A stretch of DNA of 11,588 bases from Candidatus Dormiibacterota bacterium (GTDB taxonomy: Bacteria; Chloroflexota; Dormibacteria; Dormibacterales; Dormibacteraceae): NCBI GenBank assembly GCA_003151665.1, contig PLYD01000085.1, positions 1 to 11,588 of the forward strand, in the 5' to 3' direction. This document shows positions 3,199 to 11,588 of the stretch, piece after piece. Under the pieces are notes generated by a model. It did not search any database. It had not been told where the DNA came from and saw nothing but the letters and a program-made list of their open reading frames with translations. The position numbers were made by a program, and so were the translations under genes. The first letter of the stretch is position 1; each line of letters begins with the position of its first letter.

Positions 3199-4236
3199 TT
3201 AGGCGCGTCCTGGGTTGGTCGGCGCGGCGGTGACGATCGCGGCAGTGGCCTGCTGGCCAGAGACCGAGCTGATGGTGCAGGAGACCGTCTTGGTTGCGTT
3301 GTATCCCACGTCCGGCACCACTTGCGCCTCGCACGTGCCGACGGTCGCCTTCGTGGCCGAGTCGGTCATCGTGAAGGCAATGGTGGACGGCGCCTGCGCG
3401 CCGAGCTTGCCACCGAGGTTCTTGACCACCGCCGAGACGACACAGGTGGCAGTGCAACGCGAGGTGTCCACAGAAACCACTGTGTAAATCGGCGGCAGCG
3501 TCGAGAGGTTGGAGAAGTCGATCACGTCGGTGGGCTTTGCGATCTTGAAGTCCTTGCCGAAGTTGCTGTACTGGAAATCGGCGTCATGAACTCCGTCGAC
3601 GGCGGCGCCTTTCTTCAAGCGCAGGTGGAGGAGCTGGTACGGGGAGTTGGCAGCGATGAAAACATCCGCCCTCGGGCCGGACAGGTTGACAGCATCAGTC
3701 CCGTCGACCGCGACGTTGTCGTTTCGCGTCGTCACGGCGGTGCCCAGGAACGTCGACCGAAACGCCGCCCCCTCTGTCAGGTCCACCAGCCGAGGCAGGT
3801 TCACGGCAGTACCTTTCCACCAGGCATTTCCTGCCGCTTTGACCAGGTTGAGGGACGCAGAATCCGAGCCCATGTGCTGGGCCAGGTATTTGTTGCCGCG
3901 AAAGTAGGAGTCGGTAGGGATGCCATTGGAATCGATGAGGACGATGGCCTCGAGATTCAGGTCAGGAGTGCTCACCGTCAAGTGCCAGCTGCGGAACCGA
4001 ACGACCTGCAGATCGATCGACCAATTCTCCAACCCGGCGTCTACATAAGTTCCTTTGATCTCGAAGCTCTTGGCCGCAGCGAGGGTGTCTGCGGCTCCGT
4101 TCTCGAGGGCGCGGGTCGATGGCTCACCAAGGCCGAACGGCGCCTGGCACCCTGATAGGAGAGCCACGAGGGTGACCCCGGCGGCAGCGGCCAGCGCCCG
4201 GTATCTCGCGCGCGGGGGTGCAACTATGGTTCGCAT
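3199..4236 (-). CDS. Secreted lipoprotein, LppX/LprG-like with C-terminal beta domain
   Basis: A 345-residue lipoprotein. An Arg-rich N-terminus, a hydrophobic stretch (ALAAAAGVTLVALL) and the lipobox LSGC with the acylated Cys at position 30 predict export and anchoring on the outer face of the membrane. Residues about 40-245 (SFEIKGTYVDAGLENWSIDLQVV, ending TDVIDFSNLSTLPPI) have the shape of LppX/LprAFG-type lipoproteins, whose half-barrel binds lipids. The last 90-100 residues form a separate Thr/Val-rich, apparently beta-sandwich part with four Cys (SRCTATC, VGTCEAQ, VSCTIS) that could pair as disulfides. The ATG at 4234-4236 is the natural start because the signal peptide begins there. 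It diverges from the RnfD-like gene. The ligand is unknown and the family call is by overall pattern. Confidence 0.8.
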   Translation of the reverse strand: MRTIVAPPRARYRALAAAAGVTLVALLSGCQAPFGLGEPSTRALENGAADTLAAAKSFEIKGTYVDAGLENWSIDLQVVRFRSWHLTVSTPDLNLEAIVLIDSNGIPTDSYFRGNKYLAQHMGSDSASLNLVKAAGNAWWKGTAVNLPRLVDLTEGAAFRSTFLGTAVTTRNDNVAVDGTDAVNLSGPRADVFIAANSPYQLLHLRLKKGAAVDGVHDADFQYSNFGKDFKIAKPTDVIDFSNLSTLPPIYTVVSVDTSRCTATCVVSAVVKNLGGKLGAQAPSTIAFTMTDSATKATVGTCEAQVVPDVGYNATKTVSCTISSVSGQQATAAIVTAAPTNPGRA

Positions 4237-4282: not shown

Positions 4283-6058
4283 GTGGCGAGTTCCGAAGCG
4301 GCGCCTCCGCAGGGGCTGACCGTTCCCGTCGATTCCAGACGCGGGACGCCGCGTACCGGCAAACGCAGGGCCGTCCGCCTTGGCGGCCGCGAGTACCCCG
4401 TTGTCCTACCCAGCCTCCGCGACCCCCGAATGCACGTCGCCGCAGTTCTCCTGACGCTCCAGGCTCTCGGTCAGACGGTGCTAGGTTTCCGCCTCTCGAT
4501 CGCCCAGATCCTCATCTGCCTGGCCACTGGCGCCCTGATCGAGTTCTTGGTGACGTTCTTTAAGGACCATGCCATCATCTGGCCCGCCAGCGGGCTCCTC
4601 ACCGGCAACAGCACTGCCTTCATCCTCCGGGTTCCAGGCACGCTTCACGGCCAGTGGTGGAGCACCCACGGGATCGAGATCTTCATCGGTGTGGTGGCCC
4701 TGGGCATGGCGACGAAATACCTGATCCGCTGGAAAGGGCGTCACATCTTCAACCCCTCCAACGTGGCGCTCGTGCTGGCGTTCGTCGTCCTGGGCGTGCA
4801 GCACACCGAACCACTGGACCTGTGGTGGATACCGATGGGCCTGTGGATGGCGGTGACCTACGTGATCCTCGTCGGCGGCGGCCTGCTGATCGCGTGGGAG
4901 CTGAAGATGCTCGGCCTGGTGTTCGCCTTCATGATCGCGTTCGCCGCTTTCCTGGCGGTGGCGCTGTCGCAGGCCCCAGACCACTGCATGGTCGCAAGCT
5001 GGCGCGCGAATCCGATGTGCGGACGCGATCTGTGGCAGATCCTGGTCACCTCGCCAGAGGTCCTGATCTTCGCCCTGTTCATGATTCCCGATCCCAGGAC
5101 CGTGCCCGACGGCCAGGTGGCCAGGGTGGTGTTCGGTGTGATCGTCGCGATGCTGGCGGTGCTGCTGATCGGCCCGACCACGCTCGAGTTCTGGACCAAG
5201 ACCGCGATCCTCGGCAGCCTCGTCCTCGCTTGCGCGTTGCGATTTGCGCTGGTCGCCTTCCTGGCGCCATTCGTGGCCGAGGGAGGCGGGCTTCGATGGA
5301 TGCTTGGAGGGTTCAGGTGGCAGGTGCCGGCGGCCCTCGCCGTCGCACTTCTGTGCGTTGGAGCTCTGCCGGTGGCCGCTGACATCTCGACCACAGCGCC
5401 GACGCCGTTCGCTGAGCTCCCCGACGGCTCGACTCCAAAGGTCAACGTCACGGTCGGCAACGGGCCGGCATCAGCCGAATGGGTCTCAGCGGCGGCCGTC
5501 GCGGCCTTGCCGCCGCCCGGTGGCACATCGCCAGGCTCCGCCTCAGCTCGCGTGTGGTTGCTCCCCGGATACCCGACGATGACCGTGGCGGCCAACGTTC
5601 ACAGCTATGACCCGTCCCTAACTTCCAAGGGGGTCAATCAGATGGCTCACGACATCGTGCTCGACCTCATCATCGAGGCCGAGGCGCGTCGCTCCCATGA
5701 CCTGACGCTGGCGCAAAGTGGCGCCGAACCCGACGCGCTCACGGAATTCACGGACGTGATCAAGCAGGACATCGCCGCCAAGAAGTTCGTCCAGAAGACG
5801 TACACGTTCGACAAGCTCAGCCTGCAGCTTTTCTTGCCGAAGTTCGCGAGTCAAGCACCACTGTTGGAGGGGATCTCGCTGCATGGGACAGCGACCCTCA
5901 CGACGAGGGACGCATCGGGCAACGTGCTCTCGAGGACCACCTCGACCTACGCCAAGATCTGGGGCTTGGGTTACTACCAACAGGACAGCAACGGCAACCA
6001 GATCGGGACCAACCAGCTGATCCAGGTCGACTACACAGGCCTGACCCTAGCGCCGTGA
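4283..6058 (+). CDS. RnfD/NqrB-like membrane protein with large extracytoplasmic domain
   Basis: 591 residues from the GTG at 4283, the first start after the divergent promoter. Residues about 45-380 are a multi-pass membrane domain with landmarks of the NqrB/RnfD family: SGLLTGNSTAFILRVPG, HIFNPSNVALVLAFVVLG and FALFMIPDPRTVP...ARVVFG, corresponding to the LLTGLLLALTLPP, NPA and F-M-x-x-D-P blocks. In Rnf and Nqr complexes this subunit carries covalent FMN and takes part in ion-coupled electron transfer. I see no SGAT-type flavinylation motif between the NPS and DP blocks. Residues about 385-591 (from about ISTTAPTPFAEL) are an unrecognised, probably extracytoplasmic domain not found in ordinary RnfD. 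No other rnf or nqr gene is nearby. It diverges from a lipoprotein, so a shared envelope role is possible. Confidence 0.75.
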   Translation: MASSEAAPPQGLTVPVDSRRGTPRTGKRRAVRLGGREYPVVLPSLRDPRMHVAAVLLTLQALGQTVLGFRLSIAQILICLATGALIEFLVTFFKDHAIIWPASGLLTGNSTAFILRVPGTLHGQWWSTHGIEIFIGVVALGMATKYLIRWKGRHIFNPSNVALVLAFVVLGVQHTEPLDLWWIPMGLWMAVTYVILVGGGLLIAWELKMLGLVFAFMIAFAAFLAVALSQAPDHCMVASWRANPMCGRDLWQILVTSPEVLIFALFMIPDPRTVPDGQVARVVFGVIVAMLAVLLIGPTTLEFWTKTAILGSLVLACALRFALVAFLAPFVAEGGGLRWMLGGFRWQVPAALAVALLCVGALPVAADISTTAPTPFAELPDGSTPKVNVTVGNGPASAEWVSAAAVAALPPPGGTSPGSASARVWLLPGYPTMTVAANVHSYDPSLTSKGVNQMAHDIVLDLIIEAEARRSHDLTLAQSGAEPDALTEFTDVIKQDIAAKKFVQKTYTFDKLSLQLFLPKFASQAPLLEGISLHGTATLTTRDASGNVLSRTTSTYAKIWGLGYYQQDSNGNQIGTNQLIQVDYTGLTLAP

Positions 6059-6068
6059 TGAAAGGCTT

Positions 6069-6659
6069 TTATTGCTCGTCCCTGGTGACAGCTTTGGGGA
6101 TGCCAGCCGGTTCGTAAACAGGTGGCGGCTCGATGCCGAACGTGTCGGCGAGCCGCACGAACAGGCTGAACAAGGCGGCGACGTACGCGGCCTCGGCTAT
6201 TTGCTCGTCCGTCCAGCTCACGTCGCGCAGCCCCTGGACCTGTTCATCTGTGACCCGGTACGCGGCTTTGGAGATGGTGCCTACGAATTCGAGGAGCAGT
6301 CGCTCAGGCGGGTCCAGGTTGGCAGCGTCGAGGTCGCCGTCTCGGAGTGCATCCGTCACCCCCTCGAACTCTTTGCCCTGCAACTGCAGGAACCACGTGT
6401 GGGAGCTGAGTCAATACCTGCAGCGGTTCAGAGCCGAGACGTATGAGGCGATCATCTCGTGCTGCGCGCGGGTGAGGGCGCCGTCGCTGAAGTGCATGCG
6501 TGAAGCCGCCTGGATGCCGGCCAGGAAATCGGGCCGGAGGCTCATGGTCTTGATGATCCCGGCCACGGTGCCGCTTGGACTCACCGATTTGGCTTGGGCG
6601 TAGACCTCGGCCAGGGCGCCCTTCGCATCGGACTCCTCGACCATCTTGATTCGAGCCAC
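6069..6659 (-). CDS. AhpD/carboxymuconolactone decarboxylase-like peroxidase, putative selenoprotein (CxxU)
   Basis: Read through one in-frame UGA (6411-6413), this is a 196-residue protein of the peroxidase-related AhpD-like family, whose members act as thiol-dependent peroxidases or reductases through a CxxC...H centre. The motif region is SALNRC-R-Y-U-LSSH: Cys80, the UGA at codon 83 in place of the second Cys, and His87. Upstream (MVEESDAKGALAEVYAQAK, QHEMIASYVS) and downstream (LDPPERLLLEF, VTDEQVQGLRD, WTDEQIAEAAYVAALFSLFVRLADTFGIE) both fit the family, and the frame stays open to TAA. A SECIS-like hairpin follows the UGA. The start is a GTG (6657-6659); ATG 6642-6644 is an alternative and neither has a clear Shine-Dalgarno sequence. 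It lies 39 bp after the globin gene. A Cys-to-stop mutation or a sequencing error is the competing explanation. Confidence 0.77.
6377..6390 (-). promoter_or_regulatory. Putative bacterial SECIS hairpin
   Basis: On the minus strand CCUGC (6390-6386), loop AGUU, GCAGG (6381-6377) form a perfect 5-bp hairpin, extendable by one U-G pair. The loop begins 25 nt after the UGA and has G as its second base, within the published bacterial SECIS pattern (loop 16-37 nt from UGA, G among the first two loop bases). The lower stem is irregular; a competing CCAC/GUGG pairing lies at 6393-6402. SelB would bind such an element. Confidence 0.5.
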
Positions 6660-6698: not shown

Positions 6699-7148
6699 TT
6701 ACTCGAGACCGTCCCAGGACCACTTCGGCACCGCCAGGTCGGCGGGCACGTGAGAGCCGGCGGGGGTGTAGGCGAGCACGTCTTTGGTTGCCCACTCCAT
6801 GTAAGCGCGAAGGCCGTCGCGGAGCTCGGGATCGTCGGGGAGATTCACGTCGTCGACGGCTTGCATGAAGCAGGCGACGAAGCGCGGGCCGAAGTCGTCG
6901 CCCGCGCCTTTACCGGCATGGATGCCGATCATTCCCGAATGGCCGCCACACGAGCCCGAGTAGCGGGCCGGGCCGCCGAAAACCTCGACCCAGTAGTCCG
7001 CCAGCCTCTCGAGGTGCTCGGGGTTGCGGGTTTGAGAGAAGGGGTGGTTCAGCTCAGGGTCTGCCAGAACTCGCTCGTGCAGCGCTGACGCGAGGGCGAG
7101 AAAGGCGGGATCACCGCCCGCGAATTCGTAAATCGATGGTCGGGCCAT
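6699..7148 (-). CDS. Group II truncated haemoglobin (globin)
   Basis: A 149-residue cytoplasmic globin from the ATG at 7146-7148. The sequence follows the group II truncated haemoglobins of high-GC bacteria: IYEFAGGDPAFLALASALHERVLADPEL, LADYWVEVFGGPARYS, a probable proximal His in IGIHAGKG, ATKDVLAY and the terminal PKWSWDGL. Such proteins bind haem and handle O2, NO or peroxide. The frame is open 31 codons further, but those residues have no globin character. The start is supported by CAAGAT 6 nt upstream and a TCGACG hexamer 18 nt further, a possible leaderless promoter. It is followed by the AhpD-like selenoprotein candidate on the same strand and diverges from the DUF1003 gene. Confidence 0.9.
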   Translation of the reverse strand: MARPSIYEFAGGDPAFLALASALHERVLADPELNHPFSQTRNPEHLERLADYWVEVFGGPARYSGSCGGHSGMIGIHAGKGAGDDFGPRFVACFMQAVDDVNLPDDPELRDGLRAYMEWATKDVLAYTPAGSHVPADLAVPKWSWDGLE

Positions 7149-7154
7149 CAGCAA

Positions 7155-7184
7155 ATCTTGAATCAACCCCGTGGCGAGCGTCGA
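7155..7184 (-). promoter_or_regulatory. Candidate promoter of the globin gene
   Basis: On the minus strand TCGACG (7184-7179), an 18-nt spacer and CAAGAT (7160-7155), the last 6 nt before the globin ATG. The -35 and the spacing resemble the arsR promoter (TCGACT-18-TATGAT-6-GTG). The -10 departs from consensus at its first base, so support is moderate. Confidence 0.35.
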
Positions 7185-7215
7185 CATAGGCCAGCGGAAA
7201 TCGATGCTGTGTGGC

Positions 7216-7618
7216 ATGAAACACAAGCTGGTCCGCAACAACGACGTTCATCCGCACACCGTGTTCAATAAGTGGCTCGCGCTGCTGATCACCAAACGGC
7301 GGCGGCAACATGTGGTTCTTTTACTTCCTGATCGTCTTCATCGGAGGCTGGATGCTGCTATCCAGGCTGGGCCCACTCGGCTTCGACCCCTACCCGTTTG
7401 CCCTCATGCTCCTGATCGTCGGCGGCATCTTCCAGGCTCTGGCGATGGTCGCCATCATGGTCGGCCAGAACGTCCAGGCTGCCGCCAGCGACGCCCGCGC
7501 CGAAACCGACCACGAAACCCTGGTCGCCATCCACGCCCTGACCGCGCAATCGGTCCAGATCCTCGAGGGCCAGAACAAGATCCTGGCGCTCCTCCAGGAG
7601 CAGTCCAAGAAGGGCTGA
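7216..7618 (+). pseudogene. DUF1003 membrane protein, frameshifted
   Basis: Two frames make one DUF1003 protein. From ATG 7216 the first gives MKHKLVRNNDVHPHTVFNK then WLALLITK, a normal lead-in to the first membrane segment, and then runs out of frame. The second gives GGGNMWFFYFLIVFIGGWML, the FDPYPF signature, a second hydrophobic helix (LMLLIVGGIFQALAMVAIMV) and GQNVQAAASDARAETDHE, all DUF1003 hallmarks. Dropping one base, the C at 7297 (ACC AAA c GGC GGC), fuses them into about 133 residues. The family is of unknown function. It may be a true pseudogene or a base-call error in a GC-rich (CGG)n run. Translation from ATG 7310 alone would give 102 residues with a truncated N-terminus. It diverges from the globin gene. 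Confidence 0.7.
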
Positions 7619-7966: not shown

Positions 7967-8728
7967 CTACGTCGGTTTCTTGGCCCTGATGTAAGCGCTT
8001 CCGACCTTGCCACCAACCCCGGGGATCGACTGGGTGGCGTGGACCTCAAAGTGCGTGTCCTCGAAGCCCGCCTCGAGGAGGGCTTTTCGGTAGTCGTCGA
8101 TCGGGATCGTGCCCGAGATGCAGCCCGCCCAGGAGTCCAGGCTCTTCTTCACGGTCGGGTCGAGGGTCTCGAGCTCCACTATGTCGGCTACGGCGAAGAG
8201 ACCGCCTGGTCGCAGTACGCGGAAGGCCTCTTTGATGACAGCACCCTTGTCCTCTGCGAGGTTGATCACGCAGTTGGAAATCACGACATCGATCGACGCG
8301 TCGGGCAGCGGGATGTTCTCGATCGTGCCTTTCAAGAAGGTGGCGTTCGATACTCCCGACTTCTTGGCGTTGCTGTTGGCGAGCTCCAGCATCTCGTCGG
8401 TCATGTCAACGCCGTAGGCGTGGCCGCCCGGGGCGACGCGCCTTGCAGAAAGCAGAACGTCGAGGCCGGCACCCGACCCCAGGTCCAGGACAACCTGGCC
8501 GGGCTCCAGCTGCGCGAGCATGGTGGGGTTGCCGCACCCGAGGCTCACGGCCTCGCTCAGTCCGATTTCCTTGAGCTCGTCCAGCGAGTACGAGCCACTG
8601 CAGCCGCAGTCAGGTCCATCGGCCTGGCAGCAGCCGGCCTCCGCGATGGTTTGGCCCGTGGGGATGACCTTCAGCTGCTTTGCCACCCCGGCGTATCTCG
8701 ACCGAACCGCCTCACGTATCTCGCTCAT
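7967..8728 (-). CDS. arsM: Arsenite S-adenosylmethionine methyltransferase (ArsM)
   Basis: A 253-residue cytoplasmic enzyme that transfers methyl groups from SAM to trivalent arsenic, giving methylated and finally volatile arsenicals. The SAM-binding loop is LDLGSGAGLD (about 81-90), with the acidic residue in GVDMTDEML. The conserved As(III)-binding cysteines are in place: C65 in VSLGCGNP, C153 in ISNCVINL and C203 in WAGCISGTIP, equivalent to Cys72, Cys174 and Cys224 of the algal CmArsM. A further cluster C33, C34, C41, C43 lies in the N-terminal loop. The ATG at 8726-8728 has a strong AGGAG Shine-Dalgarno sequence 6 nt upstream. It diverges from arsR across an 87-bp region with two operator-like sites, so arsenite-inducible expression is expected. 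Confidence 0.93.
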   Translation of the reverse strand: MSEIREAVRSRYAGVAKQLKVIPTGQTIAEAGCCQADGPDCGCSGSYSLDELKEIGLSEAVSLGCGNPTMLAQLEPGQVVLDLGSGAGLDVLLSARRVAPGGHAYGVDMTDEMLELANSNAKKSGVSNATFLKGTIENIPLPDASIDVVISNCVINLAEDKGAVIKEAFRVLRPGGLFAVADIVELETLDPTVKKSLDSWAGCISGTIPIDDYRKALLEAGFEDTHFEVHATQSIPGVGGKVGSAYIRAKKPT

Positions 8729-8742: not shown

Positions 8743-8758
8743 ATCGATGAACGTCGAT
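8743..8758. promoter_or_regulatory. ArsR operator-like site 1 (arsM-proximal)
   Basis: ATCGATGAACGTCGAT: ATCGA and TCGAT arms around 6 nt, the geometry of ArsR/SmtB-family operators. It matches site 2 at 13 of 16 positions in the same orientation. It lies just upstream of the arsM ribosome binding site, where bound ArsR would block arsM transcription, whose -10 may be TATGCT (minus strand, 8770-8775). Confidence 0.55.
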
Positions 8759-8778
8759 GGGTTGAGCCTAGCATATCC

Positions 8779-8794
8779 ATCGACTAACGTGGAT
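8779..8794. promoter_or_regulatory. ArsR operator-like site 2 (arsR-proximal)
   Basis: ATCGACTAACGTGGAT, a near copy of site 1 with centres 36 bp apart. It is nested in a longer inverted repeat, ATCCATC (8775-8781) and GATGGAT (8792-8798). It covers the arsR -35 and part of the spacer, so binding would repress arsR itself. Confidence 0.55.
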
Positions 8795-8809
8795 GGATTC
8801 TCGTATGAT
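8780..8809 (+). promoter_or_regulatory. arsR promoter, leaderless type
   Basis: TCGACT (-35, 8780-8785), an 18-nt spacer and TATGAT (-10, 8804-8809), which ends 6 nt before the GTG at 8816. The transcript is therefore predicted to begin at the start codon. The -35 overlaps ArsR site 2. Confidence 0.6.
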
Positions 8810-8815
8810 CGTCGC

Positions 8816-9163
8816 GTGACGAAGTTGAAGGAGCTGCCGGTTCTCCGCCAGCGCGGCGTGTGCTGCGGGCTTCCGGATGTCGACGCAAACTGGGCCGCGA
8901 GCACCGCCGCGCTCATGAAAGCACTGTCCGATCCGACCCGCCTCACCATGGCCGCCTCCTTATGGAAGTCCAAGGCTCCCATTTGTATCTGCGATTTCAC
9001 GGCGGGGCTTGGGCTGAGCCAACCGACAATCTCCCACCACATGGCCAAGCTCAAGGAAGTGGGCCTGGTCGATTCAGAAAAGCGTGGCATCTGGGTCTAC
9101 TACCGGTTACGCGCCGACCTCGCACCGGCGACGCGAAGGCTCTTAGCGCAGCTGATCGCCTAG
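8816..9163 (+). CDS. arsR: ArsR family arsenite-responsive repressor
   Basis: A 115-residue winged-helix repressor of the ArsR/SmtB family. The core is MKALSDPTRLTMAASLW, then KAPICICDFTAGLGLSQPTISHHMAKLKEVGLV (recognition helix SQPTISHHM) and the wing KRGIWVYYRL. Candidate As(III) ligands are C16-C17 near the N-terminus (RGVCCG) and C57, C59 in ICICDF. The N-terminal Cys pair plus a core Cys recalls the Corynebacterium ArsR site (Cys15, Cys16, Cys55), while CxC in the helix recalls E. coli ArsR. The GTG at 8816 is chosen because TATGAT lies 6 nt upstream; the open frame reaching back to 8747 runs through the operators. Arsenite binding should release it from the two sites before arsM and arsR. 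Its stop overlaps the convergent diguanylate cyclase stop. Confidence 0.93.
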   Translation: MTKLKELPVLRQRGVCCGLPDVDANWAASTAALMKALSDPTRLTMAASLWKSKAPICICDFTAGLGLSQPTISHHMAKLKEVGLVDSEKRGIWVYYRLRADLAPATRRLLAQLIA

Positions 9164-11436
9164 CGTCGCTTGCGAGCGCTCGACACCTCGTCGTCGGCGC
9201 GTTGGATCAAATCATCCGCAGAGTCGCCGGTGTGGAGCCGGGCAAGACCGACTGTGATGGAGGCACCAGAGCCATCTGCGCCGAGCCTCGCACTTACTGC
9301 CACGAAGCGTAGGCGGGCGTTTTCCATGGTGATCCCAGGGAGCGCGCATACGAACTCGTCACCCCCGACGCGTGTGATTACATCGTATGAACGCAAGCAA
9401 GCTCGTAGCGAGTCGGCGACCGCGATGAGCAGCACGTCTCCGGCAGCGTGACCCTGGCCATCGTTCGTCGCTTTCAGCCCGTCCACGTCGAGATAGGCGG
9501 CTACGAGCTCTCCGCTGTCGCGCTGCGCACGATTGATCTCGCGTCCGATGGCAGCCAGGCCGGCGCCGCGGCGGCTTACGCCCGTCAGCTCGTCGGTCCC
9601 GGAATCTTCACGATCCTTGGCGGCCTGCGCGCGATCCTCGGCCGCGATCTGGCGGTCGTGGCTGCCCTGCGCCCGATCATCCGCTGCAACCTTGCGGTCG
9701 TTGACCGCTCGCACGCGGCTGTCTGCGGCGTCAGCCCGCTCTGAGGCCGCTCTGGCGCCCGCATCCTCCGCGCGCTGACGATTGGTCGCCGCGCGATCCC
9801 CGGCGGTTCGGTCGAGATCTCCCGCAGCGTCGTCACGGGCTTCGGCGTCACGGTCGCGCAGACCGGCGGCGACGTCGCGGTCCCGCGCCGCCAGACCGGC
9901 TTCCCGACGGCGCACCGCTGTTTGCTCGTCGGTCCCGGAATCTTCTCGGTCCTTCGCTGCCTGGGCACGGTCTTCGGCTGCGACCTTACGGTCGTTGATC
10001 GCTCGTACGCGGCTGTCGGCAGCCTCAGCGCGACCCGAGTCGGCCCGGGCGCCTTCGTCAGCCGCGCGCTCGCGGTTGCTCGCCGCGCTGTCACCCGCCG
10101 TCCGGTCGCGATCACCGGCGGCGTCGTCGCGGGCTTCGGCCTCTCGGTCACGCAACCCGGCCGCGACGTCACGATCCCGGGCGGCCAGTCCGGCCTCCCG
10201 GCGGCGCACAGTCGTCAACTCATCGGTCTCGGAATCCTCGCGGTCCCTGGCCGCCTGCGCGCGATCGTCCGCTGCAACCTTGCGGTCGTTGATGGCTCGT
10301 TCGCGGCTATCCGCGGCATCGGCGCGACCGGAGTCGGCCCGTGCGCCCTCGTCCGCGGCGCGCCGGCGGTTGCTCGCGGCGCGATCGCCTGCAATTCGGT
10401 CGAACTCAGCGGCCGCGTCGTCACGGGATTCGGCGTCTCGATCACGCAGCTCGGCGGCAAGGTCGCGCGCCCGCGCCGCCAGGCCGGCATTTTCACGATC
10501 CTTGGCGGCCTGGGCGCGATCCTCAGCTGCAAGCCTGCGGTCGTTGATAGCCTGGGCGCGATAATCCGCAGACTCGGCGCGCCCCAAGGCGGCCTGGGCG
10601 CCTTCGTCTGCCACCCGCCGGCGGTTGCTCGCGGCGCGATCGCCTGCGGTTCGGTCAAGGTCACCCGCCGCATCGTCACGTGCCTCGGCCTCGCGGTCAC
10701 GCAGCCCGGCAGCAACATCACGGTCCTGAGCGGCCATACCCGCCTCCCGACGCCGCGTGCCGGTCAGCTCGTCGGTCCCTGAATCTGCGCGGTCCTTGGC
10801 CGCCTGGGCACGGTCTTCGGCCGCGACTCTGCGGTCGTTGATGGCCTGGGCACGGTTGTCCGCAGCCCCGGCGCGCCGCGAGGCGGCCAGGTCACGCTCG
10901 TCTGCCGCATGCTGACGGTCGGTCGCCGCGCGGTCACCTGCGGTTCGATCGAGATCGCCCGCCGCGTCATCACGCGCCTCGGCCTCTCGGTCGCGCAAAC
11001 CGGCCGCGACGTCACGGCCCTGCGCAGCCAGGCCCGCCTCCCGGCGGCGCACTCCTGTCAGGTCGTCGATCCCGGAATCTTCGCGGTCCCTTGCGGCCTG
11101 AGCGCGATCTTCGGCCGCCACCTTGCGGTCATTAACCGCCTGGGCGCGGTTATCGGCAGCCTCAGCGTGCGCCGACGGAGGTCGGGTGCCTTCGGCTTGT
11201 TGGCTCTCACTGGCCGCGCGGTCCCCTGCCGTCCGGTCGAGGTCACCGGCTGCGTCATCGCGCGCAGCGGCCTCCCGGTCGCGCTGCTCGGCCTCCCGGT
11301 CGCGCACGTCCGCGGCCAGATCGCGATCGCGTCCTTCTATGTCCCGCTCACCCGCGGTTGCCAGGGCGTCTTGGCCGTTATCAGACAAAGCTCCACAGAG
11401 TGGGCCCATCGCCATAACAATTGCAGCAACTGTCAC
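9160..11436 (-). CDS. Diguanylate cyclase with six long N-terminal repeats
   Basis: A GGDEF protein of 758 residues if started at the GTG 11434-11436, which has GGAG four bases upstream; ATGs at 11413-11415 and 11407-11409 are alternatives. The C-terminal catalytic domain runs from DELTG (615-619) to the end: metal/substrate residues in YLDVDGLKATND (D650, N658, D659), the intact GGDEF signature (691-695) and the product-inhibition site RSYD (682-685) exactly five residues before it. It should make cyclic di-GMP and be feedback-inhibited. Residues about 36-626 are six Ala/Arg/Asp-rich repeats of about 98 residues, likely alpha-helical or coiled coil. Residues 2-17 are hydrophobic and might be a weak membrane segment. 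No sensory domain is recognised, so the repeat rod may be the input or a scaffold. The open frame extends to 11577 only by crossing the tRNA. Confidence 0.88.
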   Translation of the reverse strand: MTVAAIVMAMGPLCGALSDNGQDALATAGERDIEGRDRDLAADVRDREAEQRDREAAARDDAAGDLDRTAGDRAASESQQAEGTRPPSAHAEAADNRAQAVNDRKVAAEDRAQAARDREDSGIDDLTGVRRREAGLAAQGRDVAAGLRDREAEARDDAAGDLDRTAGDRAATDRQHAADERDLAASRRAGAADNRAQAINDRRVAAEDRAQAAKDRADSGTDELTGTRRREAGMAAQDRDVAAGLRDREAEARDDAAGDLDRTAGDRAASNRRRVADEGAQAALGRAESADYRAQAINDRRLAAEDRAQAAKDRENAGLAARARDLAAELRDRDAESRDDAAAEFDRIAGDRAASNRRRAADEGARADSGRADAADSRERAINDRKVAADDRAQAARDREDSETDELTTVRRREAGLAARDRDVAAGLRDREAEARDDAAGDRDRTAGDSAASNRERAADEGARADSGRAEAADSRVRAINDRKVAAEDRAQAAKDREDSGTDEQTAVRRREAGLAARDRDVAAGLRDRDAEARDDAAGDLDRTAGDRAATNRQRAEDAGARAASERADAADSRVRAVNDRKVAADDRAQGSHDRQIAAEDRAQAAKDREDSGTDELTGVSRRGAGLAAIGREINRAQRDSGELVAAYLDVDGLKATNDGQGHAAGDVLLIAVADSLRACLRSYDVITRVGGDEFVCALPGITMENARLRFVAVSARLGADGSGASITVGLARLHTGDSADDLIQRADDEVSSARKRR
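9559..11331 (-). repeat. Tandem repeat array, about 294-bp units, inside the diguanylate cyclase gene
   Basis: Six head-to-tail units at 11032-11331, 10738-11031, 10483-10737, 10189-10482, 9895-10188 and 9559-9894. Three middle units are exactly 98 codons. The unit at 10483-10737 lacks 13 codons at its end (85 codons) and the last has a 14-codon insertion (112). Each runs LAAxxRDVAAGLRDREAEARDDAAGD..., INDRKVAAEDRAQAAKDRE, and most end SGTDELTGVRRREAG. They are direct coding repeats, not CRISPR. Confidence 0.9.
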
Positions 11437-11439
11437 GGT

Positions 11440-11457
11440 GCTCCGCAGGCTCGGAGC
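11440..11457 (-). other. Hairpin between tRNA-His and the diguanylate cyclase gene
   Basis: A perfect 6-bp stem (GCTCCG / CGGAGC) with a 6-nt loop, 21 nt past the encoded CCA of the tRNA and ending 3 nt before the GTG start. It includes the GGAG proposed as the ribosome binding site. It could help form the tRNA 3' end or hide the ribosome site; no U-run follows. Confidence 0.3.
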
Positions 11458-11478
11458 AGGGGTGGCTAGAGTGGATTT

Positions 11479-11556
11479 TGGGGTGGCTAGCGGGATTTGA
11501 ACCCGCGACAGCCAGATCCACAATCTGGTGCTCTGCCATGCTGAGCTATAGCCACC
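11479..11556 (-). tRNA. tRNA-His (anticodon GTG)
   Basis: A complete cloverleaf on the minus strand. The acceptor arms GTGGCTA and TAGCCAC pair perfectly, with the histidine-specific extra G at -1 (11556) opposite C73 (11482). The D arm is GCTC/GAGC, the anticodon stem CCAGA/TCTGG carries loop TTGTGGA with anticodon GTG, and the T arm is GCGGG-TTCAAAT-CCCGC. The 3' CCA is encoded (11479-11481). Confidence 0.97.
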
Positions 11557-11588
11557 ACGGTGCGGGCCTGGAGTCACCAGCCCTGTAG

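Follow-up and report, generated by a model that had tools for sequence, protein, structure and literature searches.

Background

Selenoproteins of the AhpD-like type, in which a CMD domain carries a CxxU motif, were described in the Sargasso Sea set of 2005 (PMC1088965) and in the GOS set of 2008, there as 'AhpD-like 1' (COG2128) and 'AhpD-like 2' (pfam02627) (PMC2398784). They appear again in a review of 2022 (PMC9312934) and in one of 2026, the latter naming an 'AhpD-like protein' (TIGR01926) and a 'CMD-like' protein (PF02627) (PMC13188914). For the enzymes of this fold that use cysteine, a further paper gives a relay of five residues, which is Glu36-Cys48-Tyr50-Cys51-His55 in the AhpD-like protein PA0269 and Glu118-Cys130-His132-Cys133-His137 in AhpD of M. 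tuberculosis (PMC3141380).

Here we analyse a stretch of 11,588 nucleotides from a Dormibacterota metagenome contig, referred to as the window, which encodes a putative member of this group. Like the Sargasso Sea and GOS selenoproteins it belongs to the same Pfam family, has its presumed Sec as the second residue of the CxxC motif and is followed by a SECIS-type hairpin with a G in a small apical loop; in contrast to the type named TIGR01926 it scores below the cut-off of that model, and the likeness is drawn from published descriptions. With the NCBIfam entry NF041238 (AhpD_rel_CFYUT, alkylhydroperoxidase-related (seleno)protein) it has a related fold and CxxU in common, whereas the motif is CFYUT there and CRYUL in the window; the loci L040 and L041 of relatives, which have CFYUT, seem nearer to the NF041238 type. 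Its best fold match, the uncharacterised peroxidase-related protein 2prr from Ralstonia, and PA0269, which shares the relay residues and their spacing, both have Cys where the window protein would have Sec. The earlier note on this DNA had expected a further case of a family already known, and this judgement agrees with the published record of CxxU AhpD-like selenoproteins, which goes back to 2005.

Methods

In protein profile searches the TGA was written as Cys (C for U). The two-ORF layout was defined as at least 82 open codons, a TGA and at least 113 open codons, a start codon not being required. For the hairpin, codon 93 and relay counts a set of 46 sequences was used; as these were picked by their TGA, its presence in 46/46 is no result. 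Copies of contigs already included were left out of this set (L001, L024-L033, L091, L092, L094-L096), as were L093 and the distant relatives L040, L041, L045 and L098-L111. The regular-expression motif search missed L028, L093 and several distant loci. Locus L087, whose frame is broken on the 3' side of the Sec codon, was used unaltered. Public protein matches numbered 291, and the figures given for them rest on the 120 matches listed.

Results and discussion

One reading frame across a TGA

The gene, read on the minus strand from 6659 to 6069, consists of a GTG start, 82 codons including this GTG, the TGA, 113 sense codons and a TAA (Table 1). The ORF caller divides it into an upstream ORF (6411-6659, 82 aa) and a downstream ORF (6069-6383, TTG start, 104 aa). 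Reading of the frame confirmed what the earlier note had described, namely two minus-strand ORFs in one phase, set apart by the TGA and nine sense codons, with the TGA at the second Cys position of the CxxC...H centre (C80-R-Y-TGA83-L-S-S-H87).

Table 1. Positions of the selenoprotein gene, its putative recoding elements and the neighbouring globin gene in the window.
Feature	Position	Strand	Remark	Basis
Coding sequence of putative AhpD-like selenoprotein	6069..6659	minus	196 codons + TAA, TGA read as Sec	Pfam CMD, AlphaFold2 pLDDT 95.1
In-frame TGA, codon 83 (putative Sec)	6411..6413	minus		TGA kept in 38/38 named loci, 17/17 orthologues
Motif C-R-Y-U-L-S-S-H, codons 80-87	6399..6422	minus		Cys80 and His87 in 46/46 aligned sequences
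SECIS-like hairpin UCCUGC-AGUU-GCAGGG	6376..6391; loop 6385-6382	minus	loop 25 nt 3' of TGA	
Leu93 codon TTG	6381..6383	minus	two loop bases and first 3' stem base; false start of downstream ORF	
Truncated (bacterial-like) globin gene	6699..7241	minus	ends 39 nt before selenoprotein gene	PF01152, 48 bits

The bare layout was rejected as evidence by itself, being as common in dinucleotide shuffles: the window contains 8 such layouts, whereas 300 shuffles average 6.4, and 103 of them reach 8. The case therefore rests on comparison with relatives. What is above chance is the homology across the TGA, the conserved TGA column and the conserved RNA hairpin.

Family, fold and relay residues

The protein passes the cut-off of the Pfam CMD family (PF02627; 45.7 bits, cut-off 23), while its scores for the peroxidase-related enzymes of TIGR01926 (76.3 bits) and for NF041238 (72.9 bits) lie below the curated cut-offs of 81.8 and 175. 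Since both scores fall short, we class the protein among the AhpD-like (CMD) selenoproteins but in neither of the two narrower families. PDB 2prr aligns over residues 28-182, that is, across the TGA, and together with the Pfam match this bears out the claim that the 113 codons on its 3' side continue the family fold. The AlphaFold2 model, built with 32 sequences, has a mean pLDDT of 95.1 and a pTM of 0.91, and its top match among solved structures is again this protein (2prr_A; TMq 0.80, 183 columns, E 1.1e-9); AhpD of M. tuberculosis (1knc_A) is a poor whole-fold match (TMq 0.54).

All five relay residues are present, i.e. Glu68, Cys80, Tyr82, U83 and His87. Glu68 is found, like Cys80 and His87, in all 46 aligned sequences, and Tyr82 in 45 of them. 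The spacing equals that of PA0269 and of M. tuberculosis AhpD, so that Sec83 would stand at the place of Cys51 in PA0269.

Conservation of the TGA column

The nearest genome examined, G001, contains a 96% identical copy of the gene with a single TGA. In this genome and 40 relatives, 41 in total, some match was obtained in 28 and an orthologue at 61-96% identity in 17, and each of the 17 orthologues has one TGA, always at the codon-83 column. The scan of named genomes gave 38 loci of 48-96% identity, which all have a TGA at this column, and among the matches listed from 301 genomes of the phylum of G001 (121 with matches), TGA was present in 16/16 of those that extend over the column at an identity of 59% or more.

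These findings bear on the possibility that we are looking at an ordinary Cys enzyme, with a TGA that stems from pseudogene decay or from faulty sequencing. The bare layout, as frequent in shuffles, would permit such a reading, and in one relative, L087, the frame is indeed broken further 3' of the Sec codon, with the TGA column kept. The same TGA in every named locus and every orthologue contradicts it, however, and 18 aligned copies contain no further in-frame stop, which also answers the earlier concern that close relatives might show scattered stops. The dN/dS ratios, moreover, range from 0.07 to 0.28 on the 3' side of the TGA and from 0.07 to 0.45 on its 5' side (17 comparisons), and both sides are under purifying selection. 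An explanation by pseudogene or error was rejected and is scarcely credible.

By record title the 38 loci belong to Dormibacterota (6), Chloroflexi/Chloroflexota (24), Anaerolineae (2), Ktedonobacterales (1), Planctomycetota (3), Acidobacteria (1) and Proteobacteria (1). The Proteobacteria-titled locus (L077, Centralia_MAG_675) has a 60-base stretch identical to L094 of genome G070; as G070 and G001 are assigned to one phylum, the title of L077 may be wrong. The Acidobacteria-titled locus (L086), from a groundwater bin, shares 68% identity and the TGA with the window gene, which would reflect either transfer between phyla or mis-binning. Apart from these loci, more distant AhpD-like genes of the relatives also have a TGA in this motif, reading CFYUT (L040, L041), CHYUT (L045), CDYUL (L106) and CAYUM (L110).

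Selenocysteine machinery and the use of UGA

The earlier note had proposed a search for selA, selB, selC and selD, and all four were found in the nearest genome, G001: a tRNA-Sec with the anticodon UCA (ARAGORN; 69.4 bits with Rfam), selB (343.7 bits) and selA (487.6 bits) adjacent on one contig and over their cut-offs, and selD (356.6 bits), likewise over its cut-off. In the 17 carriers of the orthologue, selA and selB are over the cut-off in 16, the exception being G017, which is 71% complete, and selD in 15 of these draft genomes (exceptions G003 and G010). A clear tRNA-Sec of at least 58.2 bits is present in 12; the search, which responds in control genomes too, also gave matches of 44-50 bits. 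A few of these pass the cut-off narrowly, and we take them for other tRNAs. In seven further carriers, selB and tRNA-Sec are over the cut-off without exception. One of them, G123, is a one-contig genome, which bears on the earlier condition that a complete genome without Sec machinery would speak against Sec. The genomes G026, G032 and G036, in which the orthologue is absent, have no selA match and no selB or selD that passes the cut-off, with marginal tRNA-Sec matches in G032 (48.5 bits) and G036 (47 bits). Many genomes possess the machinery without the orthologue, selA being over the cut-off in 35 of the 41.

As a separate observation, one TGA is present in 28 of the 36 selD genes that pass the cut-off (relatives; L018-L020), G001 being an exception, and SelD is probably itself a selenoprotein in most of these relatives' genomes.

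A UGA that is read through in frame could also specify one of the standard amino acids, either because the codon is reassigned or through read-through, and Trp does occur at this column in one of the 34 listed public protein matches that span it. The residue there is, however, Cys rather than Trp or Gly in 32 of these 34, and the tRNA of G001 with its UCA anticodon is a tRNA-Sec. In addition, TGA terminates 3 of the 10 window genes examined. It is also the next stop to follow the Sec codon in 14 of the 38 loci, the broken frame of L087 being counted among the 38. General reassignment of UGA was rejected because UGA ends ordinary genes, and decoding as a standard amino acid is altogether very improbable.

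A hairpin within the coding sequence

Just 3' of the UGA there is a hairpin with a G in its small apical loop, and it recurs with few changes in the 46 aligned stretches. In 44 distinct rows all 264 of 264 stem cells are paired. At one stem position 40 rows have C-G and 4 have U-A; the two substitutions are synonymous (Leu CTG/TTG, Gln CAG/CAA). None of 500 shuffles attains the observed number of paired cells, the number of doubly changed cells or the covariation score, while one doubly changed pair is reached by 170 and the further pair types by all 500. As the paired change represents one or two events and 170 of the 500 shuffles also give one such pair, it is supportive but not decisive.

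A stronger sign of an RNA signal would be the fixed codon 93, which is TTG in 46/46 of these TGA-bearing genes, whereas TTG accounts for 129 of 909 Leu codons gene-wide, those 46 included; when synonymous entropy is set against codon usage, it is the lowest of 95 columns. Compared with shuffles the hairpin shows no extra stability (z 0.15 and 0.44), and a search of the window for SECIS families (Rfam, E up to 5) found none, only a tRNA among its six matches being over the gathering score. The combined pattern of TGA and hairpin core has a single match in the genome of G001, located at the selenoprotein gene, the matched TGA being an overlapping one out of frame.

Cys forms and divided records in public databases

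The 34 matches spanning the codon-83 column, among the 120 listed, comprise the 32 Cys forms, one with Trp and one with a gap, so that a comparison of homologues at this column, as had been suggested, yields TGA at the 38 loci and mostly Cys in these listed matches. Cys80 is absent in 8 of the 32 listed Cys forms (six Thr, one Asn, one Tyr) and Cys83 is retained, which would fit residue 83 as the indispensable one of the pair. A tree of 48 Sec and 28 Cys rows requires 4 changes of label; neither the deep forks nor the bootstrap had settled.

The remaining 86 of the 120 listed matches begin after codon 83, in line with the expectation that standard callers would report a truncated product, and 80 align from residue 93. 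This residue is the TTG (window 6383) with which the downstream ORF starts, inside the hairpin. Because 80 of the 120 listed matches align from there, gene callers have probably used the recoding signal as a start codon.

Decoding and catalysis

Taken together, the conserved UGA at the second CxxC position, the hairpin and the Sec pathway in close relatives support the decoding of UGA 83 as Sec that the earlier note had put forward. On the basis of these comparisons we consider it highly probable, with a probability of roughly 0.94, that this AhpD-like (CMD, PF02627) peroxidase-related protein contains Sec at this position. SelB carrying Sec-tRNA(Sec) would bind the hairpin, whereupon Sec would be placed at UGA 83. 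By analogy with the AhpD mechanism, Sec83 might then attack a hydroperoxide, aided by Glu68, Cys80, Tyr82 and His87; Cys80 would resolve the oxidised Sec83 to a selenenylsulfide, and a thiol donor would reduce the latter. We regard such a cycle as fairly likely.

A selenoprotein whose main reaction is something other than peroxide reduction, e.g. reductive dehalogenation as in Bmp8, or service as a reductant or adaptor for a partner such as AhpC or the neighbouring globin, seems a less likely though by no means negligible alternative. The fold search also matched the debrominase Bmp8 (6ohj_A, E 9.9e-4, TMq 0.73), most of the close fold matches are uncharacterised proteins, and AhpD is termed an adaptor for AhpC and PA0269 only a weak peroxidase (PMC3141380). 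Bmp8 ranks, however, far below peroxidase-related structures such as 2prr_A, and the window protein has the complete Glu-Cys-Tyr-Sec-His relay; both points speak against the alternative.

Gene neighbourhood

The truncated globin gene upstream is a possible operon partner of the selenoprotein gene. Within the 38 named loci a globin lies at most 100 nt upstream in 18 and farther away in 4; none was found in 13, and 3 have too little upstream DNA to judge. Two of the 13 globin-less loci (L068, L069) share the window's downstream neighbours and the other 11 share neither neighbour (L078-L081, L083-L086, L088-L090). On the downstream side, a convergent gene without Pfam match is located within 300 nt in 24 of the 38 loci. 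Two window genes, 3199-4236 (minus) and 4283-6058 (plus), have no Pfam match and, in many loci of the Dormibacterota type, remain neighbours of the selenoprotein gene; we assume the former to be LppX-like and the latter RnfD-like.

From the gene order, with the globin upstream, one might guess at a role of the selenoenzyme in peroxide or reactive-nitrogen stress. It is conceivable, though rather doubtful, that in Dormibacterota the two genes work as a single system, in which the selenoenzyme would remove peroxide or peroxynitrite that arises or is handled at the haem of the truncated globin, or would re-reduce this globin.

Farther along the window, a methyltransferase gene (7967-8728, minus; Pfam Methyltransf_31), presumably ArsM-like, is divergent from a gene for an ArsR-type regulator (8747-9163, plus; HTH_5), and the two are likely an arsenic-response pair. 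The long ORF at 9160-11577 (minus) contains numerous repeats of the DRxA type and, towards its end, a GGDEF motif; since its 5' end overlaps a tRNA gene on the same strand (11482-11555, 67.6 bits), its true start is probably further downstream.

Conclusion

What appears to be new, judging from the sequences compared, is the use of Sec in Dormibacterota and the frequent truncated-globin neighbour of an AhpD-like selenoprotein. Literature searches that combined either form of the phylum name (Dormibacterota, Dormibacteraeota) with selenocysteine, and Dormibacter- with selenoprotein, found no report among the papers covered, which included few subscription papers. Dormibacterota, known here only from metagenome bins, would be added to the groups with a Sec pathway, and these 'split' AhpD genes are very probably conserved selenoprotein genes, of a clade that public databases contain largely in the form of fragments. 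As the clade lies below the cut-offs of TIGR01926 and NF041238, a Sec-aware family model for it could mend these records. The gene order also suggests a link of the selenoenzyme with the globin that can be tested; if true, this soil phylum, which is uncultured, would possess a globin module that depends on selenium.
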